Shown one piece after another: positions 6,259 through 48,678 of a stretch of DNA of 64,000 nt. The DNA is from Methanotrichaceae archaeon. GTDB taxonomy: Archaea; Halobacteriota; Methanosarcinia; Methanotrichales; Methanotrichaceae. The position numbers were made by a program, and so were the translations under genes. The DNA lies in contig JABLXE010000009.1 of the NCBI GenBank assembly GCA_013178225.1, positions 1 through 64,000 of the forward strand. The letters run 5' to 3'. Each line of letters opens with the position of its first letter. The first letter of the stretch is position 1. Below the pieces are notes generated by a model, which worked only from the letters and a program-made list of their open reading frames with translations, was not told the DNA's origin and did not search any database.

Positions 6259-7620
6259 TCAACTGCCAAACATTAACCGCTCCGCGATCTCCTCCAGTGA
6301 CAGGCCCTCTTGCACTCCTTTCTTCATATCACGCAAGTTGAGCCTGCCTGAAGCAAGCTCCTCAGGTCCAACTATTACCGCGTAGTTAGCGCCCATCACA
6401 TTGGCAGCCTTAAGCTGCGCCTTTTCCGACCGGCCCATCACATCCAAGACCACTGGAATTTTTGCGGCCAGGACCAGATCGCGCAGCTTTTCGGCCAATT
6501 TTATAGCCGCGGCCCTGGCATCTGGGGTGCTTACCAGCACTACGGGGGCGGGTCGCGTTTCCTCGATTGAGGCGATCTCCATTATCCGGTCAAAGCCCAA
6601 TCCAAAGCCGGTAGAGTTGGTGGCCGCCCCGCCGAAGAGACTGGCCAGCTCGTAGCTCCCGCCGCCGCAGATCTGCCTCTGGGCCCCCAGACCGGAGGCG
6701 TAGATCTCGAAGACGGTCCCGGAATAGTATTCCAGACCGCGAACTATCTCGAAGTCTATAGTTGCATCGACCCCATAGGCGTCCAAGAGATCGATCATCT
6801 CCCGGAACTCGTTCAGCCCGCTTTCGGCCTCAATTTCGCGATTAATCCTGGCAGAAGCCCTTCCTTCGGAGGTAGAAAATGCTGAAGACGCCGCAGGAGC
6901 TGGAGATTGAACCTTTACCCGCTCCAGATCATGAGAAATGGCCTCAGCCTGATCCAGAGCCGCTCGTCCTTTAGCATTAATGATATCCATGATCCCGAGG
7001 TGATCGGCACCGATCTCCTGCAAATATTCCTGAAGGCGATCTCGCTCCTTCTTGTCGATCATCCTCATGATCGCTGTGCGGTGCTCAGAACCGATCTTTG
7101 CCAGAATCGACCGGACCAGCCCCAGATATCCCACGTGAATATCTCCCTTGACGCCTGCTGCCCTGATCATTCGGTCCGCCAGAGCTATTACCTCGGCCTC
7201 AGAGTCGGGCTTTCTTGCACCAATCAGCTCCACGCCCAGCTGCCAGAACTCTCTGAAACGCCCTTTCTGCGGTCGCTCGTATCTGAAGCAATTACCGAAA
7301 TAGCATAACCGGAGGGGCCTGGGCGCGTTCTGCAGCTCATTTACGTACATGCGCATCACCGGGGCGGTCAGCTCAGGGCGCAGAGCCATATCCCGGCCGC
7401 CCTTGTCCTTGAAGCTGTAGATCTCCTCCAGCACGGCTTCTCCCGATTTGAGGGTGAAAAGATCGAGATTTTCAAAGGTGGGGGTGGCGATCTCCTGATA
7501 ACCCCAGCGCTCGGCCGTACCCTGCATGGCGGTTCTGATTCGGTTCCTTCTCCAGGCGTCTTCAGGGAGGAAGTCTCTGGTGCCTCTAGGTCTCTGGATG
7601 CTCATAGCATGATTTTGCAT
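6259..7620 (-). CDS. hisS: Histidyl-tRNA synthetase
   Basis: This class II aminoacyl-tRNA synthetase charges tRNA-His. Seen in order are the N-terminal RPRGTRDFLPED signature, class II motif 2 in RYERPQKGRFREFWQLG (near residue 115), the HisA-like signature RGLEYYSGTVFEI, motif 3 (GFGLGFDRIMEI) and a C-terminal anticodon-binding domain (VLDVMGRSEKAQLKAANVMGANYAV). The length of about 450 residues is normal, with an archaeal-type insertion near residues 210-235. Translation may start at ATG 7620 or at ATG 7605, which begins MSIQRPRG and fits the family better. It is transcribed away from the DUF131 pair and leads into the glycan cluster. Confidence 0.97.
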   Translation of the reverse strand: MQNHAMSIQRPRGTRDFLPEDAWRRNRIRTAMQGTAERWGYQEIATPTFENLDLFTLKSGEAVLEEIYSFKDKGGRDMALRPELTAPVMRMYVNELQNAPRPLRLCYFGNCFRYERPQKGRFREFWQLGVELIGARKPDSEAEVIALADRMIRAAGVKGDIHVGYLGLVRSILAKIGSEHRTAIMRMIDKKERDRLQEYLQEIGADHLGIMDIINAKGRAALDQAEAISHDLERVKVQSPAPAASSAFSTSEGRASARINREIEAESGLNEFREMIDLLDAYGVDATIDFEIVRGLEYYSGTVFEIYASGLGAQRQICGGGSYELASLFGGAATNSTGFGLGFDRIMEIASIEETRPAPVVLVSTPDARAAAIKLAEKLRDLVLAAKIPVVLDVMGRSEKAQLKAANVMGANYAVIVGPEELASGRLNLRDMKKGVQEGLSLEEIAERLMFGS

Positions 7621-7664
7621 AGCGCAAATGCCCTTATAGTTTGTGATGGCTATTGGCGAATTGC

Positions 7665-7886
7665 ATGAGACGGAAGATAGGGCCGCTGCTAATTGCTGCC
7701 GGAATACTATTGGTGCTCATCTCCTCGACAGAGATCGCGAGGCCTGAGGCAGGCATTGGAGGAGTATTATTGATCGGGCCCATTCCGATAGTCTTCGGTT
7801 CCAGCCCGGAAATGGCGATTGCATCCATGCTCCTGGCCCTGGTCCTGATGGCCTTTTCTTATCTGCTCTTCAGGGGGCGGGGATAG
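7665..7886 (+). CDS. Small membrane protein, DUF131 (TIGR00304) family
   Basis: This protein of about 73 residues is basic at the start (MRRKIG) and has two hydrophobic segments. The first is PLLIAAGILLVLISS; a glycine-rich stretch GGVLLIGPIPIVFGSSPEMA follows, and the second is MLLALVLMAFSYLLF. The GPIPIVFGS motif is characteristic of DUF131, an archaeal membrane family of unknown function. I chose ATG 7665 rather than TTG 7653 because a TATA-like CTTATAG about 30 bp upstream would give a leaderless transcript. The stop abuts the TTG start of a paralogue, so the two form a tandem duplicated pair. Confidence 0.75.
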   Translation: MRRKIGPLLIAAGILLVLISSTEIARPEAGIGGVLLIGPIPIVFGSSPEMAIASMLLALVLMAFSYLLFRGRG

Positions 7887-8138
7887 TTGCTCCTTCTGGG
7901 AATTGGACTTCTCTTGATCGCCTTGGGGTTGGCATTTATGCTGTGGCCCGAAAGGGACCAAACAGGACCTCAGCCCCAGACCGACCGCGAGGAAAGCGAG
8001 ATGGTGAAGGGAGGAGCCGTGATCATGATAGGCCCGATCCCCGTTCTCTTAGGCTCAGACTCCAAGACGGCCGTGATCTTGATGCTGCTCGCCCTTGGAA
8101 TGATGATCATCTGGGTTCTGGCGATAAGTAGCATTTAA
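7887..8138 (+). CDS. Small membrane protein, DUF131 family (second copy)
   Basis: This 83-residue paralogue of the preceding gene begins with a TTG directly after that gene's stop codon. It has an N-terminal hydrophobic helix (LLLGIGLLLIALGLAFML), a charged linker, the DUF131 motif MIGPIPVLLGSDSKTA and a second helix (ILMLLALGMMIIWVLAI). The zero-length junction implies translational coupling or a former fusion. Function is unknown; the family is restricted to archaea. The true start could be an internal ATG. Confidence 0.7.
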   Translation: MLLLGIGLLLIALGLAFMLWPERDQTGPQPQTDREESEMVKGGAVIMIGPIPVLLGSDSKTAVILMLLALGMMIIWVLAISSI

Positions 8139-8284: not shown

Positions 8285-8728
8285 TCACTGCTGATTGGTG
8301 ACGATCTTCACGTGGTTGTTGGCATTGGCAAATCCAAAGGCCTGAGCGGTTCGGCTGCCAACTGTGATCTGCTCCACATTGTACTTGGTGCAGCAGTCCT
8401 GGCAGGGACAAGAGGGGTCAAGAACCTGGCAGCATTCACAATCGCCAGAATCCTGATTCTTCTTGATCTCGAGGCTGTTTGCAGCGTTCGCTGGACCGCC
8501 AATGAAGGTCGGAGGGAAAGGACTGAAAATCCATCCAGCAGCGAAGGCACGATCATTTCCAACATTCACGGTATCGAAGTTGGTATCGGCTCCACTTGGG
8601 AACTGGAAGGCACTGCCTCCGGTCTCAAATATCCCTTCGCCCAAAATATCCACACCGCCGCTGCCCACGGATGCACCGTAGGCCATTGCCGGGACGACAA
8701 CTGCCGCCATGGCCAACACAAAGAGCAT
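8285..8728 (-). CDS. Secreted Cys-rich protein (paralogue A)
   Basis: This exported protein of about 147 residues has a signal peptide ending PAMAYG. It carries a dense cysteine motif, CECCQVLDPSCPCQDCC (seven Cys in 17 residues), and ends in NNHVKIVTNQQ. The gene at 9133-9579 encodes a paralogue with the same architecture. The first canonical start (8728) gives a signal peptide without positive residues. In the same frame an ATT at 8743-8741 lies exactly 4 nt after GGTGA (8752-8748) and would give (M)RQVAMLFVLAMAAVVVPAMAYG, a normal n-region. I recognise no named family. The Cys cluster suggests metal binding or disulphide structure outside the cell, which is inference. Confidence 0.7.
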   Translation of the reverse strand: MLFVLAMAAVVVPAMAYGASVGSGGVDILGEGIFETGGSAFQFPSGADTNFDTVNVGNDRAFAAGWIFSPFPPTFIGGPANAANSLEIKKNQDSGDCECCQVLDPSCPCQDCCTKYNVEQITVGSRTAQAFGFANANNHVKIVTNQQ

Positions 8729-8758
8729 TGCTACTTGTCTAATAGTCTCACCCCATAA

Positions 8759-9132
8759 ATCTTTTTGGTAGGTTCTAGATATCTTCCTATTATATTTATA
8801 CTTTCTGGTGTATCAATGATATTAATAAAAGGCAATTTAGGATATTTTTCCAAGATAATTTGTATTGCGGTATGCGAATGCTAGAATATTGTTGGTATGA
8901 TGCTATCTTTTAATTGCGCGACAAAAATAGAATTATAATTCATACTCAGTTATTAAAATGCAAAAGGAATAGCGCTTCAGAAACGAAACGAGCTTCGATC
9001 GAAATATAGCAGATATCAAGTTACAAAAAATCGAGAAGTATTATATAAAATATCTCGCCCACAAGCATGATGCTCGTGGGCAGTAGCACACTCTTTGTGT
9101 TCGAATGCGTTCGCTTCGACCTAAATTTTCAC
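8759..9132. other. AT-rich gap between the two Cys-rich protein genes
   Basis: No gene is supported. The stretch is strongly AT-rich and should contain the promoter of the 8285-8728 gene and the 3' region of the 9133-9579 gene. Candidate TATA-like runs exist but I could not single one out. Confidence 0.4.
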
Positions 9133-9579
9133 CTACTGCTGGTTGGAGACAATCTTGACGTTGTTGGTGGCTGTGGCGAAGCCGAAGGCTCTTGCAGTCC
9201 TGTCGCCAACGCTGATGCTCTCTGCGTTCATCTTCAAGCAGCAATCCTGGCAGGGACATGCAGAATCAAGAGCCTGGCAGCATGCACAATCCCCAGTATC
9301 CTGATTGTTCTTGATCTCCAAGCTGTTTGCAGCGTTAGCCGGTCCGTTCGGAGAGGTTAAGGTCCAGGGCCATCCGACTGCAAAGGCATTATCGTCTCCT
9401 ATCTCGACGCTCTTGTAGTTGGTATCAACGTAGCTCGGGAACTGGAAGATATTTCCATCCGACTCGAAGATCCCGTCTCTCAAGACATCCACTCCACCTG
9501 TGCCGGTGTAGGCACTGAGGTCGCTGCTCGACTGGGCCATTGCCGGAACAAGAGATAAGGCTACAAACAAGGCCATCAA
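9133..9579 (-). CDS. Secreted Cys-rich protein (paralogue B)
   Basis: This paralogue of the 8285-8728 product has a signal peptide ending VPAMAQ, the shared segments GGVDVLRDGIFES and GPANAANSLEIKNNQD, the cluster CACCQALDSACPCQDCC and the C-terminus NNVKIVSNQQ. The first usable canonical codons are TTG 9579 and ATG 9576, which give a charge-free n-region. In frame upstream, an ATC at 9597 lies 4 nt after GGTGA (9606-9602), the same spacing as in paralogue A, and would give (M)KKIVVLMALFVALSLVPAMAQ, a textbook signal peptide. Function is unknown. The two genes are about 400 bp apart and probably arose by duplication. Confidence 0.7.
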   Translation of the reverse strand: MMALFVALSLVPAMAQSSSDLSAYTGTGGVDVLRDGIFESDGNIFQFPSYVDTNYKSVEIGDDNAFAVGWPWTLTSPNGPANAANSLEIKNNQDTGDCACCQALDSACPCQDCCLKMNAESISVGDRTARAFGFATATNNVKIVSNQQ

Positions 9580-9610
9580 TACTACGATCTTTTTGATAAT
9601 TTCACCCCGT

Positions 9611-10026
9611 ACATCCTTTAATTTAAAACTTAGTTAGCATTTATCATACTTATATTTTTTGGTAAGAGATACTGGACCAGATATGTCTTATACCTCGATG
9701 TCGAGAACGCCCCGACGGCGCTAAGCGTATATCCTCCAGGAATCGGCTCATGAGAGCAATATCGGGAGGTCTATGTATAGCAGATAGCAGCAAATTGGAT
9801 GATCTGCAACCGCGATAATCGATATTCATGCAGATCATGATAAAAGCTCTATGCACTCAAAAATAATTAATATATTTATAATGTTCATTAGAGTAAAAGT
9901 TCCACTGTCCCAGCAAATACACATTTACAAATAGCAGCTTAATCTAAATCGATGCCATCCTTAATAACATCTCAGCCTTCATTGCTCCCAACTGGAGCTA
10001 TGGACGCAACTTATTATAAAAGCTTT
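9611..10026. other. Gene-free intergenic stretch
   Basis: About 415 bp with no supported gene. Short open frames here lack family resemblance. The part nearest 9610 should hold the promoter of the Cys-rich protein gene on the minus strand. Confidence 0.4.
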
Positions 10027-11553
10027 CTATGCAAATATCAGCTTTCTCACCTTCATGGTCGCCAGATCGATTATAGGCGCCACTGCAACGTGAGGCTGGA
10101 TATTCATTTTCTTCTGAAAATCAGTCTGAGACTGCCAGGTCCCGCTATTGATTACGGTCACGCCCTTATACCTGGCAATTCCCACCGTGTGCACGTGACC
10201 GCAATGCAAAATAGCCGGGGGCTTAGATATAACATAATGATCCTCTTCCTCAGGGGCGATTGAGACCCGGCTTCCGTAAATAGGAGATAGGTGACGCCTT
10301 CTTAGCATCTCGATCATCGCTTTCTCGGGATTTCCGTATGAAAGTCCAGGTATTCTCATTACCAGGTCGTCTATGCTGCGGCCATGATAAACCAGAACCG
10401 ACACGCCTCCCAGAGACAGCCAGGCAGGATTGCCCGCGAAGAGCCGCTCCCCGGAGAAGAACTTCTGTATCGGCTCAGGCAGCGCCGGCTGAGGCTCGGC
10501 CTGCCGCACCATATCGTGATTTCCGGGAGAGATGATGATGCTGATGCCGGATCGCACGGCGTTCAGGCACTCTGCAGCCCTGCGGTACTGCTCGTAGACG
10601 TCAGCGATAGCCAGATCGCCTTCCTGTCCGGGATAAATCCCAATTCCGTCCACCAGGTCGCCGGCGATCACCAGATATTTAACCTGTGATGAGAGGCCTG
10701 TGGGATCATCGCTTCCTCCGTTGACCCAATCGACCAGCCGGTACCAGGCATCCTCTAGGAAATATTTGGACCCAACGTGCAGATCGGAGAGAAGAAGAGC
10801 ACAACCGCTTCCGGTCTCCAGAGCCTGACACTGGTTTGGAAGGTCGGGCCACATCAGCGATTTGATAAAAATCCGGCCACCACCGTCGGAAAAGCCGGTG
10901 ACGCCAATGACCTCATCCGGCAGGATCAATCCGGATTGCTCAAAGATGTCGGAATCCTTCTGGACGATGGCAGTAACCATGCCTGTGGGGTCCTCCAGCT
11001 CTAAAACCCGATTTCCTTTATTTGTGGACTTGACGTCCATTACCATGCCGATCAGCGAGACCTCCCTTCCCGCTGTGCTCCGAGAAAGGCTTTCGATTGG
11101 CCGGGAGTTAAGCCTCCGGGCCATTATCTCTCTCAACTTGGAGTACCTATCGCGAAAGTAACGCACGAAATCCTGGTACTCTCCTACACAGGTGGACTGC
11201 CCAGTTATGTCGCCGTAAAGCTGCACATCAGGGCTTCGCGACGGAAAGCCCGGCACAAAAGCGATAGGAGGGTAATCTTCTGCGCTTTGGGACACCCTGC
11301 GCAGATCTGCCGGGACGGCCTCATCCTTCGGGACTTGGAGGAGGCAGGACACCCGCGAGGCGTTTATCACGGCTACTGAGCTGTCGCAGCTCATCAGCAA
11401 GCGTTTTATCAAGTCATCCCTTCTACCGGAATAGGACCGTATCAGCTCAAGAGCTTCAGGGTCCACTTGATAGCCACTCTCGGCGAGCCTTCTCACGATG
11501 TCTCGATTGGCTGCGAATTCTTCGCGAAGCGGAGATCGCGATATTCCCGACAT
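10027..11553 (-). CDS. polB: DNA polymerase D small subunit DP1 (exonuclease subunit)
   Basis: DP1 of the archaeal replicative family D polymerase is a calcineurin-like phosphoesterase giving 3'-5' proofreading. An N-terminal helical region and an OB-fold (GREVSLIGMVMDVKSTNKGNRVLELED, residues 165-190) are followed by phosphoesterase motifs: LLLSDLHVGSKYF (D-x-H), VIAGDLVDGIG (GD-x-x-D), ISPGNHDMVR (GNH-D), and the late His motifs LVYHGRSI and LHCGHVHTVG. All catalytic motifs are intact and the length (508 residues) is normal. The partner DP2 is not in this window. The gene is divergent from the signal peptidase gene across 41 bp containing a TATA-like TATAAGAG. Confidence 0.95.
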   Translation of the reverse strand: MSGISRSPLREEFAANRDIVRRLAESGYQVDPEALELIRSYSGRRDDLIKRLLMSCDSSVAVINASRVSCLLQVPKDEAVPADLRRVSQSAEDYPPIAFVPGFPSRSPDVQLYGDITGQSTCVGEYQDFVRYFRDRYSKLREIMARRLNSRPIESLSRSTAGREVSLIGMVMDVKSTNKGNRVLELEDPTGMVTAIVQKDSDIFEQSGLILPDEVIGVTGFSDGGGRIFIKSLMWPDLPNQCQALETGSGCALLLSDLHVGSKYFLEDAWYRLVDWVNGGSDDPTGLSSQVKYLVIAGDLVDGIGIYPGQEGDLAIADVYEQYRRAAECLNAVRSGISIIISPGNHDMVRQAEPQPALPEPIQKFFSGERLFAGNPAWLSLGGVSVLVYHGRSIDDLVMRIPGLSYGNPEKAMIEMLRRRHLSPIYGSRVSIAPEEEDHYVISKPPAILHCGHVHTVGIARYKGVTVINSGTWQSQTDFQKKMNIQPHVAVAPIIDLATMKVRKLIFA

Positions 11554-22436: not shown

Positions 22437-23381
22437 TCAAACAAGGCTGCGGCAATGTTCTTTATACCTGCAACTTCCTGGATTTGAGCACTTCCCTGGA
22501 TCTCGCTCATAGAATATCAAATCCTGCTTGCCGTCCCTTTCCTCAATAAACCACTGCCTGACTTCATCACTGATGATAAAGAAATCCCTCTCGACATGGG
22601 GTGTAGGGTGATTTCGAGGAAAGCTTAGGTAAACGGTGCAGCCGATGTTAATTGGTACCTCATACAGACTTTCATAAACCAGTGCATATCCTGTGGCTGA
22701 AAGTTTATGGAAATCTTTTTTCGGGCCGGTCTTCAGGTCGCAGATTAGCATTCCGCCCATATTTATTGAATCGGCACTAAGGTTGCTACTCAATCCCAGA
22801 TACTGTCCGTCAAGTTTATGCTCCACCACAAAAGGGAGAGCATGATTTATCAAAGAATCTTCACTCAGGTATCGATATTTCCCGAGATAGGCATAAATTG
22901 AAGAGACTATCCTTGAGACCTCAAATTGCCATAGTTTTCTGAGATTCTCACCCACATTTTTTGTGGCTTCGCTGCCAGCACCAATCGAAGCTAAACTTTC
23001 TTCGGCTTCAATGACCGCCTCAGGCATTCTCTCCATCAAGATTTGAGCAAGATTGGTGCAAATTCCCAGACCTTCTGTATAGATCAGCCTCTTTGCTGTG
23101 GGATAAAGCTCGGCAATAGCCTGATGATATATCCTTCCGGCCACCATCTCCTCGCTGGCAGGCACGCTAACTTTCTGCACATGCCTTAAGTAAACATCTC
23201 GATCCATCTCGCAATACCTATCCGAGACTTCCCAAACGGGCAGGATAATATCATGAGGCGGTGACAGTTCAGTGGAATGCCAATTCCAGCCGCGGAGTTC
23301 TTCTGCAATGCTCTTATCTCGCGCCTTGGGAATGAGTTTCTTCAAGAGATATTTGCGCTCTTCCTCAGAAAAGAAATACAT
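22437..23381 (-). CDS. csa1: CRISPR adaptation protein Csa1 (Cas4-like nuclease)
   Basis: This Cas4a/Csa1-type RecB-like nuclease of 314 residues is found beside Cas1, Cas2 and Cas4 in archaeal type I systems. Seen are GRIYHQAIAELYP (GxxxH), VVEHKLDGQYL (Glu), LICDLKTGPKK (D-x-K, catalytic) and the Fe-S cluster region CSNPGSCRYKEHC with an earlier Cys. Cas4-like proteins trim prespacers and help select the PAM. The gene is the last of the minus-strand adaptation run csa1-cas4-cas2-cas1. Identification as Csa1 rather than a second Cas4 rests on length and position. Confidence 0.8.
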   Translation of the reverse strand: MYFFSEEERKYLLKKLIPKARDKSIAEELRGWNWHSTELSPPHDIILPVWEVSDRYCEMDRDVYLRHVQKVSVPASEEMVAGRIYHQAIAELYPTAKRLIYTEGLGICTNLAQILMERMPEAVIEAEESLASIGAGSEATKNVGENLRKLWQFEVSRIVSSIYAYLGKYRYLSEDSLINHALPFVVEHKLDGQYLGLSSNLSADSINMGGMLICDLKTGPKKDFHKLSATGYALVYESLYEVPINIGCTVYLSFPRNHPTPHVERDFFIISDEVRQWFIEERDGKQDLIFYERDPGKCSNPGSCRYKEHCRSLV

Positions 23382-23403
23382 TTTTGATCCCGACCCTCAA
23401 GCT

Positions 23404-24000
23404 TCAATCCTCTGATTGATACCCTATACAGTAACGGCTGTATTCACAATCGGTGCATCTGCCTGGGTTTTTAGTCCCAGCAGGCTCCATCTCCTCTTCT
23501 ATTATCTTGCCTACTTCTCGTATCATCTTCAATGTCCGACGAGGAAGCTCGTCTCCCATATCCACTCTCACATTGATCCGATCTTTGCTGTAATGGACGA
23601 AGCCACGCCGGACGATGGTCCTAAAGCTGTCCTCCACCAGCAGTGCATAGGCGGCGAGTTGGTATTTGTGATTGAGGAAGACTGCACCATTATGAGATGA
23701 ACCGAACTTGTAGTCTATAGGTATGAACTCTCGATCGGTCTCTACCAAGTAGTCCAGGACTCCTCGCAGTCCGAGGCTGCTACTCTCCAGGGCCACTCGA
23801 AACATCTTCTTAGCGCGGTCCAACTCCTGGTCATAGAAGAGAGCGCCTTTGCGACGTTTCTCTTTGGCGGTTATAGTATCATGCAGGTCCTTGCCAGTCA
23901 ATAGCTTCGGGTCAGTGGGCTTTGGGACGTGCAGAACGTGATCAAAGTAGATGATCCGCGGGCAGTAGAGATATTGCTTGACATCGCTAACTGTGATCAC
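23404..24000 (-). CDS. cas4: CRISPR-associated exonuclease Cas4
   Basis: Cas4 processes prespacers for integration by Cas1-Cas2. The 198-residue protein opens with VSDVKQYLYCPRIIYFDHVL, which supplies the first Fe-S cysteine. RGVLDYLVE and PIDYKFGSS supply the Asp and D-x-K nuclease motifs, and QLAAYALLVE is the QxxxY motif. The terminal CTDCEYSRYC completes the 4Fe-4S site. The start overlaps the stop of cas2 by 4 bp, so they are translationally coupled. Confidence 0.93.
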   Translation of the reverse strand: MITVSDVKQYLYCPRIIYFDHVLHVPKPTDPKLLTGKDLHDTITAKEKRRKGALFYDQELDRAKKMFRVALESSSLGLRGVLDYLVETDREFIPIDYKFGSSHNGAVFLNHKYQLAAYALLVEDSFRTIVRRGFVHYSKDRINVRVDMGDELPRRTLKMIREVGKIIEEEMEPAGTKNPGRCTDCEYSRYCIGYQSED

Positions 24001-24275
24001 AGGACAGTCACATCCTCCTCTTTGATCTGGTAGATCTCACCTATGCTCTCTTTGAGGGCATAACACTTGCCACAAAGAGGATAAAACTGGATATTTCCCT
24101 CATTTTTGTGCATCATTTTTCCCAGACGCAGCCGGAGCTTCTCCCTCGTGTTGTGATTCATGGAGCCGTAGAATGCACTCTCCTGGATGCGAATGCAGCC
24201 ATAGTCCATCAGTGCCCTGGCTACGCGAGTCCTCAGGCTGTTGTCGCTGATATCGTAAATGATAATGGTGTCCAT
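23997..24275 (-). CDS. cas2: CRISPR-associated protein Cas2
   Basis: Cas2 is the dimeric ferredoxin-fold core of the Cas1-Cas2 integrase. The 92-residue protein starts MDTIIIYDISDNSLRTRVAR, with the family Asp in YDISD, followed by GCIRIQESAFYGSMN and a C-terminal strand region (IQFYPLCGKCYALKESIGEI). ATG 24275 is 5 nt after GGTGA; an in-frame GTG at 24284 is possible. It lies 18 bp after cas1 and overlaps cas4. Confidence 0.93.
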   Translation of the reverse strand: MDTIIIYDISDNSLRTRVARALMDYGCIRIQESAFYGSMNHNTREKLRLRLGKMMHKNEGNIQFYPLCGKCYALKESIGEIYQIKEEDVTVL

Positions 24276-24293
24276 CCAGATCACCGAGTCCTT

Positions 24294-25310
24294 TCACCAT
24301 CTGGGCGTGAAAGGTTCGTAGACCGGCCGTTCGCCGCGCAGGTAGGTGGCCACTGCCGCCGCCTGGGAGCGGATGATATTTCGCAAGATCTGGCTCTTCT
24401 CGCGGTAGGTAATGCGCTCGTCCAGGCGGCCGTAGAATGCCGAGGAGGCTATCTTCATTCCGTCCTTGGTCATTCGGAAGTCCTCTTGGAAGTGGCCTCT
24501 TTTCATTTCTCTGGCCAGGCCCACCACTACGCGGTCCACCACTAGAGGCCGGAACTCTTCCATCATATCATAGACCAGCTTCTCCTGGCCGGGCCGGTCG
24601 GCGTGGAGAAATCCGGCGTAGGGATCGAGACCGGCGTAGAGTGTTGCCGCCCAGACCTCTTGCTCCAAGACGTAGTAACCGAAGTTGAGAAGGGAGTTGA
24701 TGTGATCTTTTGCGGCAGGGTAATCTCTGCCCGGAAAGTCCCACGTCTCAGGTATGAGATTAGCCCATGTGCGCCAATAGATCTCAGCGCCATTTCCTTC
24801 CAGGCCCATGATCTTCTCTCGCGCATCATCCACCATGCCCTTTATTGAATCAAGCCTTGGTATGAGAGCCTCGATCTCGGCAGAGCTGTTGCGAAACTGC
24901 TGCCATAGGTCGGCTCTGTCGCCCCCCTTCCATTTCTTTGCGAAGGATTTCAGCAGCGAGGATTGGTTCTTCAATTTGCCTCGGATGAAGGATCTGGCCA
25001 GGTCGGTTCCGCGAAAGTCATCATAAGCGCCGTACTGTTCCCGGCGGGTCCTAACAGTTCCTCCCAGGCTCGCCGGGATGAGGCGTGCCAGGGGCCTGCC
25101 ATAGTAGCTGGCGAAGACGATCTCAGTGCCCAGTTCATTAGCCATCTCGACGGCATCGGAGGAGATGGAGATGCCGCTTCCCAGAACCAGGATCTGCTGG
25201 ACCTTCCGGGCGGGAACGAGCACCTCTGGACTGTCCTTTCTGGTAATACGAAACTGCTCGCCGGACTTGCCGAGGAAGGCGCCGCGGTCGGAGAGGATGA
25301 TGCGGGACAT
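24294..25310 (-). CDS. cas1: CRISPR-associated integrase Cas1
   Basis: Cas1 is the metal-dependent integrase that inserts new spacers at the leader end. The 338-residue protein has the N-terminal beta-sandwich (MSRIILSDRGAFLGKSGEQF, QQILVLGSGISISSDAV) and the alpha-helical catalytic domain. The active-site triad is visible: Glu in MGLEGNGAEIYW, His in AGFLHADRPGQEKL and Asp in LVYDMMEEFRP. No residue appears lost, so adaptation should work. The gene is first in the minus-strand adaptation operon and is divergent from cas8 across about 240 bp. Confidence 0.97.
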   Translation of the reverse strand: MSRIILSDRGAFLGKSGEQFRITRKDSPEVLVPARKVQQILVLGSGISISSDAVEMANELGTEIVFASYYGRPLARLIPASLGGTVRTRREQYGAYDDFRGTDLARSFIRGKLKNQSSLLKSFAKKWKGGDRADLWQQFRNSSAEIEALIPRLDSIKGMVDDAREKIMGLEGNGAEIYWRTWANLIPETWDFPGRDYPAAKDHINSLLNFGYYVLEQEVWAATLYAGLDPYAGFLHADRPGQEKLVYDMMEEFRPLVVDRVVVGLAREMKRGHFQEDFRMTKDGMKIASSAFYGRLDERITYREKSQILRNIIRSQAAAVATYLRGERPVYEPFTPRW

Positions 25311-25551
25311 GACTGGAGACCTCAGAGAGTTTCGGAGATGCTACTATTTTTATTTTAGGATGGAATAGTGGCAAGCTCTAAAGGATGCTTTATGCGGGTT
25401 TGATATTTGAAAACATGGAAGAACTATCCAATTTTTAGACTATGGTCGTCAATCGCCATTACTTCCGCTACGCATAGAAAGCTTTAATGTGTAGAAGAAA
25501 TTATCCGGAATCATTTAGGAAAATAATAGGAAAAATGATAAGTGATAAATA

Positions 25552-27060
25552 ATGCTAAGTTATACGGGCCATCCTTTAGTTGATGTAGGCGCAGCAACGA
25601 TCCTCGCCTTTCGCAAAAAAACTATGATCTCTGATTTGACCGAATCAGATCTCGATAAGATGGCAGATTATATATCAAGAGAGTATGTGGTAAACCCGCT
25701 TAAGTCATTTTTAACTGTGGCTTTTCCGAACTCAGGTTTTACTCAGCCGGCGTTTGAGAAAAATCCAGAAAAGCGGGTTGATTATGCTAGACGTGTTACG
25801 AGAAGCTTCCATGATGATATGAATTCTGGTCACAATAGGTGCGTGTTTACCGGAGGTCCAACTGTAAGCATAGCTTTGAGTGATAAGAAGGGATATCCTC
25901 AGGGGAGAGTATTCCGGCAACATGTCCCACTGCTCTTGGGAGAAAATCAAATTAACTTTTTCGCAAATGGTAATAGTGGTCTGCCAATTTCGGGAAAAGC
26001 TCTTTTGTGCATTCAAGCCATGCCCCTAGGGTGCGCTAAATGCGGTGGAAAGCTTCTAGCAGTCCACTCCGATAATGCGGAAATAATTGAGAAGTTCGCC
26101 AAGAAGTTTCTGCAAGAAAATCGGAGCCGTATCGAGCTAGCCCATCAAGCAAACGAAAGCAAGCTTAAGGAATTTGGCTCGGCAAGAACTGTCATAATTG
26201 ATACACTCCTTGAAGCCGATGAAGAAATGCGGATTGCAAAAGAAGACGATCAACCTGCCTCGATAACAGCCTACCATTTCAGTAATAGTGGTCAATCAAA
26301 TGCTCTCGACTCCCGCAATCCACCACTTGAGATATACTATTTGCCTATGGAACTTTTAGACTTCTTGGCCGCGATAAAGAATCCTGACTATAGGGATGAA
26401 TGGAGCGCGATAGTTCAGCGTGCCTGGAGATTATATCCGTCAAAAAAAGCAAAGAAAAGTAAAGGTGCATCCGATGATGATAATATTGCGAAAAGAAATT
26501 ACCTCTACGAGGACCTTTTCCGGTTACCTCAAGACGCACATAGATTTTTGCGGAGTTATTTCTTGCGCATGCCAATAAAAAATACTTCAAATGATGATCC
26601 GAGGCGCGCCTATTCACTAAAGGGTGACGCAGGCTTAATTTCGTGGAAACTTACTGAACTATTCCTGAATAGGGTGATGGATGTGAAAGAAAGCCGAATA
26701 AATCTCATCCGGGAAATCGGCGATAAATTAGCTGATTATGTGAATGAGGAGAACGATAAGAAATTTTTCTCTATATTCTACGGCGAGCAAGGCAGGTATG
26801 ATGTGCTAAGAAATGCGCTCATTCGAGTAAACCATAACAGACTCAAGCAAGGAAAACCTCCGATTATAAGATTCGATCCTTTTATTGAGGTATTTGAAGA
26901 TCCAGACGAGAGAGGAAGGTCTAATTGGCGTCTTGCAAGAGATCTCGTCCTTATTCGCATGATCGAGCGGCTCTATGATCTTAAATGGATAGATAAGCAT
27001 GTGGACTCGCTTCCTGAAACACGCGAGGATGCATCCCAAGATGAATCGCAAATAATATAG
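25552..27060 (+). CDS. cas8: Type I-B effector large subunit Cas8 (Cst1-like)
   Basis: This large subunit of the Cascade-like surveillance complex recognises the PAM and recruits Cas3. The protein has 502 residues. The opening LSYTGHPLVDVGAATILAF and FLTVAFPNSGFTQPAF match the Cst1 (Cas8b1, CXXC-CXXC) family of subtype I-B/Tneap. The first expected CxxC appears as RCVFTGGPTV with one Cys missing; the second is present as GCAKCGGKLLA. It heads the plus-strand effector operon cas8-cas7-cas5-cas3. Base use is more AT-rich than cas1 or cas6. Confidence 0.85.
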   Translation: MLSYTGHPLVDVGAATILAFRKKTMISDLTESDLDKMADYISREYVVNPLKSFLTVAFPNSGFTQPAFEKNPEKRVDYARRVTRSFHDDMNSGHNRCVFTGGPTVSIALSDKKGYPQGRVFRQHVPLLLGENQINFFANGNSGLPISGKALLCIQAMPLGCAKCGGKLLAVHSDNAEIIEKFAKKFLQENRSRIELAHQANESKLKEFGSARTVIIDTLLEADEEMRIAKEDDQPASITAYHFSNSGQSNALDSRNPPLEIYYLPMELLDFLAAIKNPDYRDEWSAIVQRAWRLYPSKKAKKSKGASDDDNIAKRNYLYEDLFRLPQDAHRFLRSYFLRMPIKNTSNDDPRRAYSLKGDAGLISWKLTELFLNRVMDVKESRINLIREIGDKLADYVNEENDKKFFSIFYGEQGRYDVLRNALIRVNHNRLKQGKPPIIRFDPFIEVFEDPDERGRSNWRLARDLVLIRMIERLYDLKWIDKHVDSLPETREDASQDESQII

Positions 27061-27073
27061 AAGGATGGAATTC

Positions 27074-28162
27074 ATGACATACGTAACTGGATTATTCTTG
27101 ATTGATGCCAATGCATCGGCACTAAACAACCTGGGTTCTATTGAAGGTGAACGCTATGATAACAGCACAGGTGTTAAGGTAATTAGAGCCAATAATTCGT
27201 TTTATCCCTATGTCTCGGCTCAATCATTCAGATATTGGCTGCGACAGACTCTTCAGCAAGGTGATTTCGGCTGGAAGGCTGCCCCAATTTACAGAGAAGA
27301 AAAAATCGCATACACCGATGCAAATCCGATTGAATGGTGGGACGACGATATATTTGGTTATATGCGGGCACCTTCAAAAAAAGAATCAGCAAAAGCTAAA
27401 AGGGATGCCGACACCTCACGGGACGGAGAGACAGAAACCACAGATACTATTACGCGTGCATCGCCTTTTCGAGTGAGCACACTCGTTTCAATTGCACCTC
27501 TTAGACCTACAACTGATTTTGGAGTCATGTCAAGGCATGAAGGCGACCCAGTGCCCCATGAGCATCAGTTCTACCACACCACTCTTCAGGGATTATTCTC
27601 CCTGAATCTAAAGGCCACCGGAACTTTTTGGTATAAGAAGAAAACAGGTTTTCGCAACCTAGATGATATAAGAATTGGAATTGCAAAAGAAAAAAAGCTT
27701 GAAGATTTGAAGGAAGAGAAAGCCTATAGACTGCCAAAGGAGCAACGATTGCAGAGATTGACAGCTCTATTTCAAGGCATGGCTCAATTAGAGGGAGGCG
27801 CTAAGCAGGCACTTCATTATACAGATGTCTCTCCTGTAGTTGTAATCATGGCAGTGACAAAAGGTGGAAACCACATATTCAGTCATGCAATAAATGCAAC
27901 TAGTGATGGATTGCCCCGGATAAATCTCGAAGCACTAAAAGAAGCCTTACGTGTCTTTAACGAAGAAATTCTTTCCGATATCTTCATAGGATGGGTCAAA
28001 GGCTATGCCGAGGAGGAACGAGCTAGACTTGATGCATTTATTGAAACGCCAGAAGCAAGAACTGACAGCGGGAAAACAATACGAATAGGTCATCCACGCG
28101 AATCTTTCCTGACTTTCATTGATGAAATGAATATGTCAAATAATGCGTCATGGCTTGAATAA
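27074..28162 (+). CDS. cas7: Type I-B effector backbone Cas7 (Cst2/DevR-like)
   Basis: Cas7 forms the helical backbone that coats the crRNA spacer. Of the 362 residues, the start MTYVTGLFLIDANASALNN and YPYVSAQSFRYWLRQTLQ are characteristic of Cst2/DevR, followed by the glycine-rich RRM region and SVLVSIAPLRPTTDFGVMSR-like segments. The second ATG (27074) is preferred because AAGGATGGAATTC provides a ribosome site; an in-frame ATG at 27065 is too close to it. The gene is 4-13 bp after cas8 and 11 bp before cas5. Confidence 0.9.
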   Translation: MTYVTGLFLIDANASALNNLGSIEGERYDNSTGVKVIRANNSFYPYVSAQSFRYWLRQTLQQGDFGWKAAPIYREEKIAYTDANPIEWWDDDIFGYMRAPSKKESAKAKRDADTSRDGETETTDTITRASPFRVSTLVSIAPLRPTTDFGVMSRHEGDPVPHEHQFYHTTLQGLFSLNLKATGTFWYKKKTGFRNLDDIRIGIAKEKKLEDLKEEKAYRLPKEQRLQRLTALFQGMAQLEGGAKQALHYTDVSPVVVIMAVTKGGNHIFSHAINATSDGLPRINLEALKEALRVFNEEILSDIFIGWVKGYAEEERARLDAFIETPEARTDSGKTIRIGHPRESFLTFIDEMNMSNNASWLE

Positions 28163-28173
28163 GGAGAAAAGAA

Positions 28174-28920
28174 ATGCAGGTGCTGAAAGTGGTAGCGGAA
28201 GGAGTAACCACCTCCTTTCGTTATCCTCATTTCATGCTAGGAATTCACCCGACTTTTGAGCTTCCTCCACCAGCTACTATCTATGGTCATATCTGCAGCA
28301 CTCTAGGTGAATGGGTGAGCCCTGAAGGAGTAGAATTTGCCTATCATTTTACGCATGAGGGAGCTTTTGATGATGTAGAGCACGTTCACGTAGTGGCAAC
28401 ATCAACTGGGAACCTCCCTGGAACCAAAACGCCAAAGGTCTTGGAAGGCGCGATAAATCCTTTTAAAAGGAGGATGCTCTTCAAGCCGAAGCTTGTTCTA
28501 TATATTAATAAACCGCAATGGGAATCGGCGTTTAAGAGCCCGTATTACCCAGTAGTTCTCGGCCGGTCACAAGACCTTTTTTCATATACAAGCATCGAGG
28601 TCATTGAATTGGAAAAAAGATCCCAGGCTTACTTTGAACACACTCTCGCGCCTTATGGAATGCTCCTAAGAATGGGGAAGGGATATGCAACATTGATGCC
28701 TCGCTATATTGATTATGCCAATAATAGGGAGCCAACATTTTCCCGATATATTGCCTTAACTAGAAGAATAGACAGCACAGATTTCATCAAATACGATAGC
28801 GAACCCAAGGATGCTAATTTCCTTATCGATCCAACATCCCCTAAGATAGGCGGCGCTCATATGGGCTTATGGTTCCATTCTTTTATTGGAGAATACAATG
28901 ATACCCCAAGCATGGCCTGA
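28174..28920 (+). CDS. cas5: Type I-B effector Cas5
   Basis: Cas5 is the RAMP subunit that holds the crRNA 5' handle. The 248-residue protein begins VLKVVAEGVTTSFRYPHFMLG, the usual first strand and glycine-rich loop, followed by PPPATIYGHICSTLGEWV, the conserved helix of Cas5 proteins. The C-terminal part is less conserved. It is preceded by GGAGAAAAGAA. Its 3' end overlaps the start of cas3 by 23 bp, so the operon is compact. Confidence 0.9.
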   Translation: MQVLKVVAEGVTTSFRYPHFMLGIHPTFELPPPATIYGHICSTLGEWVSPEGVEFAYHFTHEGAFDDVEHVHVVATSTGNLPGTKTPKVLEGAINPFKRRMLFKPKLVLYINKPQWESAFKSPYYPVVLGRSQDLFSYTSIEVIELEKRSQAYFEHTLAPYGMLLRMGKGYATLMPRYIDYANNREPTFSRYIALTRRIDSTDFIKYDSEPKDANFLIDPTSPKIGGAHMGLWFHSFIGEYNDTPSMA

Positions 28921-31273
28921 TGATTCCGAAAATATCTGGGCGAAGAGCGCATCTAAAGGCCAGAACGAAAAACCAGAGACTTTGGCTCTACACACCTGGA
29001 GCGTCCTTGAAAGATTAGGGGACCTTATCCGATTGCGTCCAATGCTGCCTGAAGAAATCAGCTTTCCTCCTCTTTGGAACTGCCTTTTTTGGGCATGCCT
29101 CTTGCATGATTTTGGAAAGGCCGCAGAGGGCTTTCAGGCAATGCTTAGGGGAGGAGCACGTTGGTCTCATCGTCACGAAGTATTTTCTCTTGCATTTCTT
29201 GATTGGATCGGAGAGGCGCTATCAGACGATGAGCGTAAATGGGTGGCTGCGGCGATTGTGTCTCATCATAAAGATGCTAAGGAAATTCAATTGGCATATA
29301 CCGAGAGAGGCGATCCTGGAAATAAAGTTCTCGCGCAGAGATTGGGTGAGATAGATGAATCAAGAATGATTGCTCTGTGGAATTGGATCAATGAGTGCCA
29401 GAACGCCTGGATAGAATGTTTAAACCTCACAGATAGTGGCATTAAATTAGCAAATTTGAAGCCGAAATCAGAATCAATTGACTTAATTAAAAAAAATGGT
29501 GCCGATAATATCAGAAAATGGCTGAATGAATATCAGCGTTTTGTCAGAAAAATTAATAGGAGTGCAGATTCGGCATTAATAATAGGATCGATTGTCCTTC
29601 GAGGCCATATCACCTCCTCAGACCATCTCGCATCTGCCCATACCGGAGACTTGCCCTCTTCGAAATTATCCGATCCGGAAAAACTGCTGGAGAGATGGAG
29701 CATAGCTTCAGGTCTATCCTACAGACCATACAATCATCAGTCCGACTGCATAAAGACCAAAGGTTCTGCTGTTTTAATGGCTCCCACAGGGAGCGGGAAA
29801 ACAGAGGCATCATTGCTTTGGGCGGTCTCACAAGCTGAAAAAGACAAACCCGTTCCTAGGCTCTATTATACATTGCCCTTTCAAGCAAGCATGAATGCCA
29901 TGTATGATCGACTGAATGATGCTGATTCGGGTGCTTTTCCCGGCCAGGTCGGGCTTGAACACAGCAGAAGCACTATAGCATACTATCGAAGCCTCCTCGA
30001 CGACCATCCTGAAAAAGCTGCAAAACATGCAAAACGTTTAAGCAACCTTGCACGGCTAAATTATTATCCTGTTCGCGTGTTGAGTCCATACCAGATTCTC
30101 AAAGCACCCTATCGCCTGAAAGGGTATGAATCTCTGCTTTCTGACTGCTTTGATGCTGTATTTATTTTAGATGAAGTCCATGCTTACGAGGCCAAAAGAT
30201 TAGCATTGATACTTGCTACCGTGAAATATCTGCGAAAGAATTTTGGAGCAAAGTTTTTCGTCATGTCGGCAACTCTGCCAAAATTATTACGGGAGCAACT
30301 GAAGGGCGCTCTGGGTGATTTTTCGCTTTTGCGGGCGTCATCCGATCTTTATTCCAAATTTGAGCGCCACCGCCTCTTGTTGAGGGATGGCGACCTAACG
30401 GCCCCTGCTGCTTTGAATGAAATCGCTGATGCATTTCGAAAAGATCAATCCGTACTAGTATGTTGCAATACTGTAAGAAGGGCGCAAGATGTATTTATTG
30501 AGCTTCAAAAGAGGCTCGCTCAAGTGGGCGAGATTGTATTGCTTCATGGTCGCTTCAATGGCAAGGACCGTTTAGCCAAGGAAAAAACTGTGAGAAATGC
30601 AACGGGATCTAAATCGGTAAAAAGAAAGCCAATCCTATTAGTTGCTACTCAGGTTGTAGAAGTCAGTTTGGATATCGATCTAGATGTCGTTTACACAGAT
30701 CCAGCCCCCCTTGAGGCATTGCTGCAAAGGTTCGGCAGAGTAAATCGCCGTAGATTGAAGGAAATTGCAGATGTTCATGTATTTAGAGAACCGGCCGATG
30801 GACAAAGGATTTATAGCGAAGAACTTGTGCGCTCTTCTCTGGCAGTTCTTGAAAAGAATAACAATAACGTTATTGATGAATCTAAGATATCGTCTTGGCT
30901 TGATGAAGTATACACAGAGAAAATAGCAGAGAAATGGAAACAAGAATATCAAGATGCATACGAAGAGTTCTGGAATAATACAATTCTAAACCTGAGAGCC
31001 TTTAATTCAGACGAAAGCCTTGAAGAAGCATTCTACCGGGCATTCGATAGCATAGAAGTCTTGCCATCGAGAATGATGGATGTGTATCAGAAAGCTGTCG
31101 AAGATAATCCGCTTGAAGCCAGCCAATTGCTTGTCTCGATTCGATGGAACCAATATGTGCAATTGGCGCGGATAGGATCGTCCTATCTCGATAAGGAACG
31201 AAAAGTCCATGTGGTAAATGCGCATTACGATTCTGAATTTGGTCTCGATTTAAGGCAAAAAGGGGAGGAATGA
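28898..31273 (+). CDS. cas3: CRISPR nuclease-helicase Cas3 (HD-DExH fusion)
   Basis: Cas3 is recruited by Cascade to degrade target DNA. The N-terminal HD nuclease shows LALHTWSVLERL, CLLHDFGKAAEGF, RHEVFSLAFL and VSHHKDAK. The superfamily 2 helicase follows: AVLMAPTGSGKTEASLL (Walker A), VFILDEVHAYEAKRL (DEVH), FFVMSATLPKLL (SAT), and ATQVVEVSLDIDLDVVYTD with ALLQRFGRVNRR (motif VI). All catalytic motifs are intact, so the system should be interference-competent. The start at ATG 28898 overlaps cas5; an in-frame TTG at 28886 is less likely. Confidence 0.95.
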   Translation: MIPQAWPDDSENIWAKSASKGQNEKPETLALHTWSVLERLGDLIRLRPMLPEEISFPPLWNCLFWACLLHDFGKAAEGFQAMLRGGARWSHRHEVFSLAFLDWIGEALSDDERKWVAAAIVSHHKDAKEIQLAYTERGDPGNKVLAQRLGEIDESRMIALWNWINECQNAWIECLNLTDSGIKLANLKPKSESIDLIKKNGADNIRKWLNEYQRFVRKINRSADSALIIGSIVLRGHITSSDHLASAHTGDLPSSKLSDPEKLLERWSIASGLSYRPYNHQSDCIKTKGSAVLMAPTGSGKTEASLLWAVSQAEKDKPVPRLYYTLPFQASMNAMYDRLNDADSGAFPGQVGLEHSRSTIAYYRSLLDDHPEKAAKHAKRLSNLARLNYYPVRVLSPYQILKAPYRLKGYESLLSDCFDAVFILDEVHAYEAKRLALILATVKYLRKNFGAKFFVMSATLPKLLREQLKGALGDFSLLRASSDLYSKFERHRLLLRDGDLTAPAALNEIADAFRKDQSVLVCCNTVRRAQDVFIELQKRLAQVGEIVLLHGRFNGKDRLAKEKTVRNATGSKSVKRKPILLVATQVVEVSLDIDLDVVYTDPAPLEALLQRFGRVNRRRLKEIADVHVFREPADGQRIYSEELVRSSLAVLEKNNNNVIDESKISSWLDEVYTEKIAEKWKQEYQDAYEEFWNNTILNLRAFNSDESLEEAFYRAFDSIEVLPSRMMDVYQKAVEDNPLEASQLLVSIRWNQYVQLARIGSSYLDKERKVHVVNAHYDSEFGLDLRQKGEE

Positions 31274-31280
31274 TCCTCCC

Positions 31281-32285
31281 TCATATCTCGATCTCATACA
31301 GCCCGTTGCCGAAGGTGGCCATCTTGCCCACGTGGATGAGCCTGCCCAGTTCCAGCAGCGCCATCACGTCCCTGGAGAACTCGCCGTAGTATTTAATCTC
31401 CCCTTTGAAGAACGGCGGAAGCTGCTGTTTCTTGATCTTCTGTTTGTGAAAGTACCTCTGTGCCCGAACATCCTTGGTGCTCGCGCTGACTGCGCTCACT
31501 TCCCGGCACTCCCCGAGCAGAGCCAAGGCTTTCTCATGGTCGTAGAGCATCCCCGATCCGAAGAACTCCGCTAGGGCATTGGCCCGGAAGAGCAGTCTTG
31601 AAATCAGGCCGCGGAAGGTAGGAGTGGCTGTGAACCTGTCGCCCTCCTTGATCTGGGCGGGTGTGAGAAAGCGCACCGTCAAATCCCCCCTGTGCTCGGT
31701 GCAGGCATTGAGCGTCTCCTGAAAACGGATGGTAACTGCGCGATTGTAGACAGTATCCCCGCAGAATATATTGTTGCGCATTCCATAACCTATACTGTCC
31801 ACCGCCTGTAGGGCAAATCTTCCATAGCCCAGACGGTAACCTCGGCTCATACCGCTCTCGCCCAGATTTCGCAGGGCCAACAGGAAGTATGGCAGGAATT
31901 CAACGCCCTTTCCGATTAGTGTGAAATTGAAGACGGCCTCAGATCCTGCGCTATGCCTTCCGGGTGCAGGCGGATCAAATACGAAGGGCCTTGGAATGTC
32001 GCTTTGCTTTCTCAGAACTTTCGCTCCCGGCGAGGGGCTGCTGTTGAAGAAGTAGTCGTAAACACAGACTGAACGAAGCGAGCAGTCGCTGCAGCTCTCT
32101 GAACTTTTTTCTGGACTGTCAGACTCAGAACACGGGCCGGATTCCGTTCCCCTGATGGTGCAGACCAACGCCCGCAGGTGGGCTCCAAAGCCACTTCTCA
32201 AGGTGTTACCTGACCAGTAGGAAAGGTCGGCGTCCGAGTCGAATCTTATCCTGGCCTCGAACTGGGACAGAGTGAGGTCGCCCAT
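31281..32285 (-). CDS. cas6: CRISPR RNA endoribonuclease Cas6
   Basis: Cas6 cuts the array transcript within repeats. This 334-residue protein is of the DUF2276-type Cas6 family. The N-terminal ferredoxin fold starts LSQFEARIRFDSDADL, a zinc-like knot follows (ESCSDCSLRSVCVYDYF) and the C-terminal RAMP domain ends in the Gly-rich GRLIHVGKMATFGNGLYEIEI typical of the family. The late loop FFKGEIKYYGEFS is also Cas6-like. It is convergent with cas3 (7 bp apart) and lies 62 bp from the first repeat, reading away from the array. Confidence 0.9.
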   Translation of the reverse strand: MGDLTLSQFEARIRFDSDADLSYWSGNTLRSGFGAHLRALVCTIRGTESGPCSESDSPEKSSESCSDCSLRSVCVYDYFFNSSPSPGAKVLRKQSDIPRPFVFDPPAPGRHSAGSEAVFNFTLIGKGVEFLPYFLLALRNLGESGMSRGYRLGYGRFALQAVDSIGYGMRNNIFCGDTVYNRAVTIRFQETLNACTEHRGDLTVRFLTPAQIKEGDRFTATPTFRGLISRLLFRANALAEFFGSGMLYDHEKALALLGECREVSAVSASTKDVRAQRYFHKQKIKKQQLPPFFKGEIKYYGEFSRDVMALLELGRLIHVGKMATFGNGLYEIEI

Positions 32286-32347
32286 AGAAGTGGGGTGTTT
32301 TCAAGAGTAGTAAAATATTGCGGAGAGGGTAAGGCCAGAGCCCGCGG

Positions 32348-37837: not shown

Positions 37838-38015
37838 AGCCCTTTGAAAGGGCCTATTTTGCTTAAATCTTGCGCCTTAATAATCCTTTAGGAAGGTATC
37901 TCTTCGCCAGCCATTCAGCTGCCTTGTAGTATTTAAACACTGGCGAATTTCAACTAGAGACCAACATCAAATATAGTTTATTCATCCAGAAAAGGGCCTC
38001 TTTATAAGTAGTGAT
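37838..38015 (-). promoter_or_regulatory. Probable CRISPR leader
   Basis: This AT-rich 178-bp stretch lies next to the last repeat on the side where the minus-strand transcript would start. On the minus strand it contains a TATA-like GTTTAAATAC near 37929-37938, which would place initiation around 37905 and leave about 70 nt before the first repeat. The 32286-32347 gap at the other end is only 62 bp and also carries the cas6 promoter. Confidence 0.6.
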
Positions 38016-38399: not shown

Positions 38400-38407
38400 A
38401 TACAATA

Positions 38408-38451
38408 GTTCTATGTCATTATAAATAAATCTTTCTAAAATGACATAGAAC
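38408..38451. repeat. Inverted repeat TTCTATGTCATT, copy 2 (right of CRISPR-Cas)
   Basis: Arms GTTCTATGTCATT (38408-38420) and AATGACATAGAAC (38439-38451) are exact complements with 18 nt between them. The loop contains the TATA-like element of the 38399 gene, so the arms could act as operator half-sites. The same arms occur at 21996-22039, on the other side of the CRISPR-Cas block. Confidence 0.7.
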
Positions 38452-38489
38452 CAATAATAAGAGCACGCAACCGCACAGAGTAGCCTTTA

Positions 38490-40522: not shown

Positions 40523-40523
40523 T

Positions 40524-43201: not shown

Positions 43202-43219
43202 GATTTAGACTGTTGAACC

Positions 43220-46015: not shown

Positions 46016-46033
46016 AGCTTCCCTTCTGAGTCA

Positions 46034-46228: not shown

Positions 46229-46238
46229 CTCGGCAGGT

Positions 46239-46744: not shown

Positions 46745-46771
46745 GGCCTACAGGATCTCTGCTTTTCAACA

Positions 46772-46942: not shown

Positions 46943-47069
46943 ATTTTTCCTCCTTTATTGGATTTATTTACTCCAATAATAAGTTGTTACTCCCGTATAA
47001 ATACGTTCCCCCGATAGTGAGTGATTAACTTCGTCAACTATAAATATCAAGAATTCCTACTGTAAGGAT

Positions 47070-48672: not shown

Positions 48673-48678
48673 CTAATA

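Follow-up and report, generated by a model that had tools for sequence, protein, structure and literature searches.

Two paralogous genes for small secreted-looking proteins, referred to here as genes A and B, lie in a window of 64,000 nucleotides (nt) from contig C28 of a Methanotrichaceae archaeon (genome of 2.98 Mb in 28 contigs, 99.8% complete). Comparison with their relatives makes it highly probable that both are translated from near-cognate codons, ATT in gene A and ATC in gene B, and that they are members of a family, confined to Methanotrichaceae, of small and apparently secreted proteins initiated at AUU, AUC or AUA (AUH; ATH in DNA). The AUH start is very likely ancestral in this family and specific to it. 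Sequence comparison shows the position of the start, the identity of its codon, its conservation, its family specificity, the lack of a usable canonical start and, among the tRNAs found, the lack of an Ile tRNA resembling an initiator.

Proposed start codons of genes A and B and of their relatives

In gene A the motif GGGGTGA (positions 8754-8748) is followed by GACT and then by ATT at 8743, and the predicted product is (M)RQVAMLFVLAMAAVVVPAMA; in gene B the motif (9608-9602) is followed by AATT and then by ATC at 9597, with (M)KKIVVLMALFVALSLVPAMA as the predicted product. An in-frame ATT at 9600 of gene B is just 1 nt from the motif, so that ATC 9597 is the geometric equivalent of the family start. 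The two products are ~150 amino acids (aa) each and ~61% identical. The canonical in-frame candidates are ATG 8728 in gene A and TTG 9579 and ATG 9576 in gene B, and a start at any of these loses all of the Lys and Arg residues of the n-region. An earlier note, made from the sequence of the window alone, had claimed that neither gene has a canonical start giving a normal n-region and that ATT or ATC follows GGGGTGA after 4 nt in both; the first claim holds, and the geometry described in the second recurs in ~70 homologous genes. GGGGTGA occurs five times on the two strands of the window, and genes A and B account for two of these. The genome contains a third paralogue (G000:C12:20767-21201), 77% identical to gene B, that reads AAGGGTGA-GACT-ATG-AAG-AGG; it has the motif and spacing of gene A with ATG replacing ATT, which fixes the position of the start.

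Relatives were sought in 50 Methanotrichaceae genomes, and the DNA was read for retrievable loci. Homologues were found in 40 of the 50 genomes by single-query search and in 47 by profile search, and the profile found none in 188 genomes from elsewhere in the class. The codon 4 nt past the motif in 72 distinct genes is ATC (36), ATT (27), ATA (3) or ATG (6), and its first two bases are thus A and T at all 72 loci. In genus g7 (M. harundinacea-like) eight genomes carry a distant member with an ATA start, and at this position the sister genus g11 shows ATG. An ATG is also seen in genus g9 (M. thermoacetophila-like), but at another spacing, and the Shine-Dalgarno (SD) spacing deviates in L060, an ATG member. 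The alignment of orthologues across the ATT/ATC codon and GGTGA that had been proposed as a check agrees with a non-AUG start, with no frameshift separating GGTGA from the reading frame in any orthologue.

The SD sequence GGGGTGA and its 4-nt spacing are nearly invariant (71 loci). The complementary anti-SD GGCTGGATCACCTCC is present in 15 family genomes; the 16S end was found in relatives and not in the window's own assembly. All 67 AUH loci have A at base -3, and the only two loci without it are ATG-start loci. Further upstream, a transcription factor B recognition element (BRE) and TATA box of the form ACCAAAA-TATAAATA is conserved in relatives from about -60 to -50, with its centre near -54; the A that is conserved at -27 suggests a 27-nt leader.

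A tree was made from 75 mature proteins with the signal peptide left out; it has few columns and many open forks. These 75 complete relatives have ATC (34), ATT (26), ATA (9) or ATG (6) at the start position, that is, near-cognate AUH in 69 genes and AUG at the same place in six, and GUG, UUG and CUG were never seen there in the family. Parsimony gives 0, 0 and about 20 changes for bases 1, 2 and 3 of the start codon, with five scattered switches between ATG and ATH and a widespread AUH state, and the GGTGA bases of the SD change one to three times each. Codon 4 (Ile/Val, three residues on) undergoes 11 amino-acid changes and is Val in 20 of the 75 proteins, whereas neither Val nor Leu ever occurs at position 1. 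The use of Ile codons differs as well: ATA makes up 85 of the 127 Ile codons within codons 2-20 of these genes and nine of 69 at the start position (p about 3e-13). If the codon must pair with the CAU anticodon of an initiator, A and T should be fixed and the third base free, as they are here; an internal Ile would not be expected to behave in this way. Codon periodicity is seen downstream of the start (1.40 bits at the second position, the highest, versus 0.53 at the third) and not upstream, and many loci have in-frame stops close upstream of the start codon. Non-AUG initiation in both paralogues, as the earlier note had argued from their matching geometry, is strongly supported by this comparison (69 of 75 with ATT, ATC or ATA, 6 of 75 with ATG, at a fixed SD distance).

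The context GGGGTGANNNNATHARRARR, which includes ATH, matches 58 times in the 50 genomes, and a control with the reversed pattern does not match at all. Three of the 58 matches lie outside the family: L090, L091 and the counterpart of L090 in G013. With NTG of any kind in place of ATH, the context has 13 matches, three of which are family members with ATG. Judged by this context, the ATH start characterises the gene family rather than the organism's genes in general. Genome-wide lax initiation is unsupported since the ATH context is nearly confined to the family, albeit that other families with other contexts are possible. Chance and sequencing error were rejected as explanations; ~70 genes share the geometry, including some in genomes of one or two contigs, and the AUH loci are present in finished or near-finished genomes such as G010 and G015 (two contigs each), which argues against sequencing error. 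We note one locus (L031, G025:C82) with a degraded SD (GGGGGATTA) and an in-frame TAA at -6, which is possibly a decaying gene.

Proposed decoding of the start and alternative explanations

The genome containing the window has 43 Rfam matches to tRNA genes, among which there is one initiator-type tRNA-Met (L130, anticodon CAU), with A1-U72 and a GGG/CCC anticodon stem. The Ile(GAU) tRNA looks like an elongator, with G1-C72 and no GGG/CCC stem, and none of the 43 matches is an initiator-like Ile tRNA. With Met(CAU) as the one initiator-type tRNA found, the simplest decoder would be initiator Met-tRNA (Met-tRNAi) with a third-base mismatch. Several of the tRNA genes contain introns (L143, L137, L148, L156, L159 and L160; for example Met(CAU), Lys, Gly, Arg and Ser).

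We propose that strong pairing between GGGGUGA and the anti-SD exactly 4 nt upstream, together with A at -3, would position the 30S subunit, and that the initiator tRNA (CAU) would then pair with the A and U of AUH while the third-base mismatch is tolerated. The protein would begin Met-Lys/Arg-Lys/Arg, as in a normal signal peptide. The weak codon would have been retained from the family ancestor onwards, probably for a limiting or regulatory effect on synthesis, like the AUU of infC and the GUC of sigR, and an upstream open reading frame (uORF), AUG GGG UGA, lying over the SD in most members may tune synthesis through termination-reinitiation. In addition to the use of Met-tRNAi, we infer that initiation would be of low efficiency and regulated. 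Tentatively, and as the less probable case, these elements could form a lineage-wide archaeal translational-control module, in which AUH with a strong SD (and the usual uORF of 2-3 codons), retained across tens of genes, makes synthesis of a secreted envelope protein depend on start-codon stringency (aIF1/aIF1A) or on reinitiation.

The codons at the start are the exact Ile set, with GUG, UUG and CUG never at the site, and a dedicated Ile-anticodon or modified initiator tRNA might thus be thought to read AUH. This is extremely improbable given that the sole initiator-type tRNA found has CAU and the Ile(GAU) tRNA is elongator-like; the absence of GUG and UUG is expected anyway, each being two changes away from AUU and AUC. 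Initiation at a downstream canonical start (ATG 8728; TTG 9579 or ATG 9576) is what the standard gene callers report and needs no unusual initiation, with a signal lacking an n-region or some other anchoring, and with upstream conservation that reflects regulatory DNA. Such candidates, however, fall anywhere from codon 4 to codon 12 depending on the orthologue, place the SD 13-37 nt away, and in none of the 67 AUH loci does a downstream ATG, GTG or TTG keep a Lys/Arg n-region. Conservation by codon position also runs through the region that would be skipped, and paralogues and sister genera carry ATG at the AUH position, so that we consider a downstream start highly improbable.

The uORF gives rise to two further explanations. 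A frame-2 ATG is open through to the TGA of the SD at 57 of the 67 AUH loci, as ATG GGG TGA at 48 loci and as ATG AAG GGG TGA in g7. A programmed +1 frameshift, similar to that of bacterial prfB, would start at this upstream AUG, with tRNA-Gly slipping from GGG to GGU at UGA and the ribosome then reading GAG ACU AUC AAA... to give M-G-E-T-I-K-K..., and AUH would be an internal Ile codon. The uninterrupted frame, the conserved GGG-U slip site and the fact that AUU, AUC and AUA all encode Ile are consistent with this. So is the loss of the uORF in four of six ATG-start loci versus 10 of 67 AUH loci (Fisher p = 0.011), which is not significant once relatedness is controlled, there being only two informative pairs. 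We nevertheless regard the frameshift as very unlikely. The upstream ATG is missing from 10 AUH loci, including gene B (ACG GGG TGA) and L027 (in a 2-contig genome), and the uORF has been gained or lost ~12 times on the tree, with 13 changes at base -12 versus none at bases 1 and 2 of the start codon. An internal Ile should moreover drift to Val, Leu, Met or Phe, as codon 4 does, and its codon usage should not depart from that of codons 2-20. Frameshifting would also place a conserved Glu in the n-region of the signal.

That the uORF comes and goes disfavours the frameshift and allows a role in reinitiation, a role that it may have. In its stronger form this is a variant of the AUH-start explanation with the same start codon: the AUH start would be reached mainly by way of the 2-3 codon uORF that ends with UGA within the SD, ribosomes restarting 4 nt downstream with lax codon choice. 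Termination-reinitiation has been demonstrated in archaea (PMC6728339), the uORF is common and overlaps the SD, and ATG-start members are more often without it. We think it rather unlikely as the main route because 10 AUH loci are without a uORF and show no visible compensation, and because of the turnover of the uORF on the tree; the test on independent pairs is underpowered, with its two informative pairs.

A separate frame opens with GTG at -8; in 48 of 71 loci its 7th codon is TAG or TAA, which overlaps the main-frame start, and these stops are probably a by-product of ATA/GTA-G codons. A frame-1 start at this GTG (GTG AGA CTA TCA AAA AAA TAG) followed by a -1 slip was rejected, since many members are without the slippery run (AGAAGAGTAG).

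Several points weigh against direct initiation at AUH, which we nonetheless favor. The out-of-frame AUG uORF, present in ~85% of AUH loci, is not accounted for, and the length of the 5' untranslated region (UTR) is predicted from TATA position alone. Upstream in-frame ATG or GTG codons occur within the 5' UTR in a few subgroups only, and an in-frame ATG at -15, -21 or -24 might serve as the start there. AUU is an extremely rare start in published surveys, one of which, on 36 genome groups, reconstructed a single switch to AUU among 61,358 AUG starts (PMC5622118), and a review of archaeal initiation names AUG, GUG and UUG only (PMC7531240). The in-frame ATGs upstream of the SD are at -24 in L051, L053 and L064 and at -21 in L035, L037, L071 and L072, and could be real alternative starts in those clades.

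The protein family and its genomic surroundings

The mature protein (~130 aa) consists of two copies of a beta-rich unit (DxVxVGNxxAxAxG...AxNNLxIxxNQ) around a variable loop. The internal repeat of the gene B product has a local score of 52.5 that is reached in none of 1000 shuffles, and two AlphaFold2 (AF2) models of low-to-moderate confidence (predicted local distance difference test, pLDDT, 73) place a 3-strand unit on each side of the loop. The products of genes A and B do share the seven-Cys pattern C-x-CC...CPCQDCC, as the earlier note had described. Its suggestion that the cluster might bind metal or form surface disulphides is unsupported as a function of the family, and we rejected the cluster as a metal-binding hallmark of the family: loop Cys content ranges from 0 to 10 across 75 members, with none in seven, and the C-x-CC...C-x-CC form is present in 19 of the 75. 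The cluster is a trait of the gene A and B products and some relatives, and in these two proteins it may do either. None of 65 members has a meaningful match in Pfam or NCBIfam, including the curlin repeat PF07012, and look-ups against the PDB and viral folds gave nothing significant, in keeping with the view of the earlier note that the proteins could not be placed in a known family. The functional amyloid FapC was the top PDB row in both fold look-ups, but with E values of 1 and 6.7 it was not taken as evidence. Genomes with the family also encode longer proteins, of about 400 to 1750 aa, that contain the beta repeat, for example in G030:C3, G011:C10 and G049; L004 (G000:C12:182978) has the repeat at its C-terminus, and its reading frame begins with ordinary ATGs. 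Secretion, which we predict from the signal peptide, paralogy and restriction to Methanotrichaceae suggest a role in the cell envelope or in association with the sheath.

In many genomes a gene of the family lies between hisS and the gene for the DNA polymerase II small subunit, and these are positional orthologues. Coordinates of the features discussed here are given in Table 1.

Table 1. Features of genes A and B, their products and their conserved neighbours in the window
Feature	Position	Strand	Remarks
Gene A, small secreted-looking protein	8285..8743	-	proposed ATT start at 8743; gene callers only from ATG 8728
Proposed ATT start of gene A	8741..8743	-	4 nt past GGGGTGA; aligns with ATG of paralogue L002 and of L033, L073, L078, L079
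Shine-Dalgarno GGGGTGA of gene A	8748..8754	-	near-invariant motif across 71 loci
Minimal uORF ATG GGG TGA of gene A	8748..8756	-	overlaps SD; out of frame with gene A
TATA box TATAAATATA of gene A, BRE-like ACCAGAAAG immediately upstream	8791..8800	-	pattern kept in relatives
Gene B, paralogue of gene A	9133..9597	-	proposed ATC start at 9597
ATT ATC of gene B	9595..9600	-	proposed ATC 9597-9595; in-frame ATT 9600-9598 before it
Shine-Dalgarno GGGGTGA of gene B	9602..9608	-	AC precedes motif, so without ATGGGGTGA uORF
TATA box TATAAGTA of gene B, ACCAAAAAA upstream	9647..9654	-	pattern common to relatives
Beta-repeat unit 1, gene B product	9292..9426	-	internal repeat; AF2 strands
Beta-repeat unit 2, gene B product	9136..9240	-	internal repeat; AF2 strands
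Cys loop of gene A (CECCQVLDPSCPCQDCC)	8390..8440	-	variable in family
Cys loop of gene B (CACCQALDSACPCQDCC)	9238..9288	-	variable in family
DNA polymerase II small subunit, conserved neighbour	10027..11553	-	Pfam DNA_pol_E_B, Metallophos; synteny
Histidyl-tRNA synthetase (hisS), conserved neighbour on the other side	6259..7620	-	translation; synteny

A pair of neighbouring small membrane proteins, each assigned to Pfam DUF131, is encoded at 7653-8138 on the forward strand, convergent with gene A. Elsewhere in the window a long array of clustered regularly interspaced short palindromic repeats (CRISPR) spans 32300-38000, with at least 66 repeats at a spacing of about 75 nt, and adjoins cas genes at 22437-32285 (Pfam calls of Cas1 at 24297-25310 and Cas3 at 28886-31270); open reading frames called inside the array, such as 34029-34877, are false. 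A provirus-like block at 38016-50102 includes a terminase large subunit (39193-39999), a family A DNA polymerase (40838-42910), a DUF3854/DUF927 protein (43223-46015) and a phage integrase (48682-49596).

Significance and comparison with known systems

A whole archaeal gene family appears to have relied on an AUH start from its ancestor onwards, and does so in finished and metagenome-assembled genomes alike. The ~15 changes between one AUH codon and another and five switches involving AUG, all in the same context and with or without a uORF, provide a natural replicated system for start-codon choice in archaea. A practical consequence is that this family of secreted proteins, from methane producers of global importance, is cut short or overlooked by standard annotation. 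Within the literature searched, which covered few subscription journals, AUU, AUC or AUA starts were not reported for any archaeal gene.

The archaeal sheath (SH) proteins of Methanothrix and Methanospirillum (PMC11576556) resemble the family in being secreted, beta-rich and multi-copy and in coming from sheathed methanogens. The SH core is described as two antiparallel sheets of six strands each, and the low-to-moderate-confidence AF2 models of the family predict two 3-strand units. SH proteins are known from Methanospirillum, ANME-1 and Thermoprotei too, whereas within the class searched the family is present only in Methanotrichaceae (47 of 50 genomes, and 0 of 188 others), and the spread beyond Methanotrichales seen for SH proteins is not shared.

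The leader has likenesses to two known translational arrangements. As in prfB-type programmed +1 frameshifting, a slip-prone codon is followed by an early UGA, but the upstream start is not conserved in the family and an acidic n-region would result. As in archaeal termination-reinitiation gene pairs (PMC6728339), a stop, an SD and the next start lie within a few bases; the differences are that the uORF has 2-3 codons, that the restart would be at AUH, and that the uORF is dispensable in some members.

The closest parallels are to bacterial infC (AUU in E. coli, AUC in Streptomyces) and Streptomyces sigR (GUC), whose weak conserved starts are held down by IF3, and for sigR a canonical start over-produces the protein (PMC5472188). 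In both infC/sigR and the family a conserved near-cognate start lies behind a good SD and gene finders misplace the start; the codon of the family is conserved, its ribosome binding site is at a normal distance, and no canonical start gives the full protein. The family differs in being archaeal and in consisting of multi-copy secreted proteins and not of a single regulator. In the family AUU, AUC and AUA interchange freely, a minimal uORF is often coupled to the start, and the start is predicted from sequence comparison. Archaea have no IF3, and aIF1 would be the discriminating factor; aIF1 reportedly favours discrimination against non-canonical starts in Sulfolobus, as cited in PMC6237735, and is thus the natural candidate for a regulator of AUH starts. 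If the translational-control module proposed above is real, it would be an archaeal counterpart of IF3-controlled infC and sigR.
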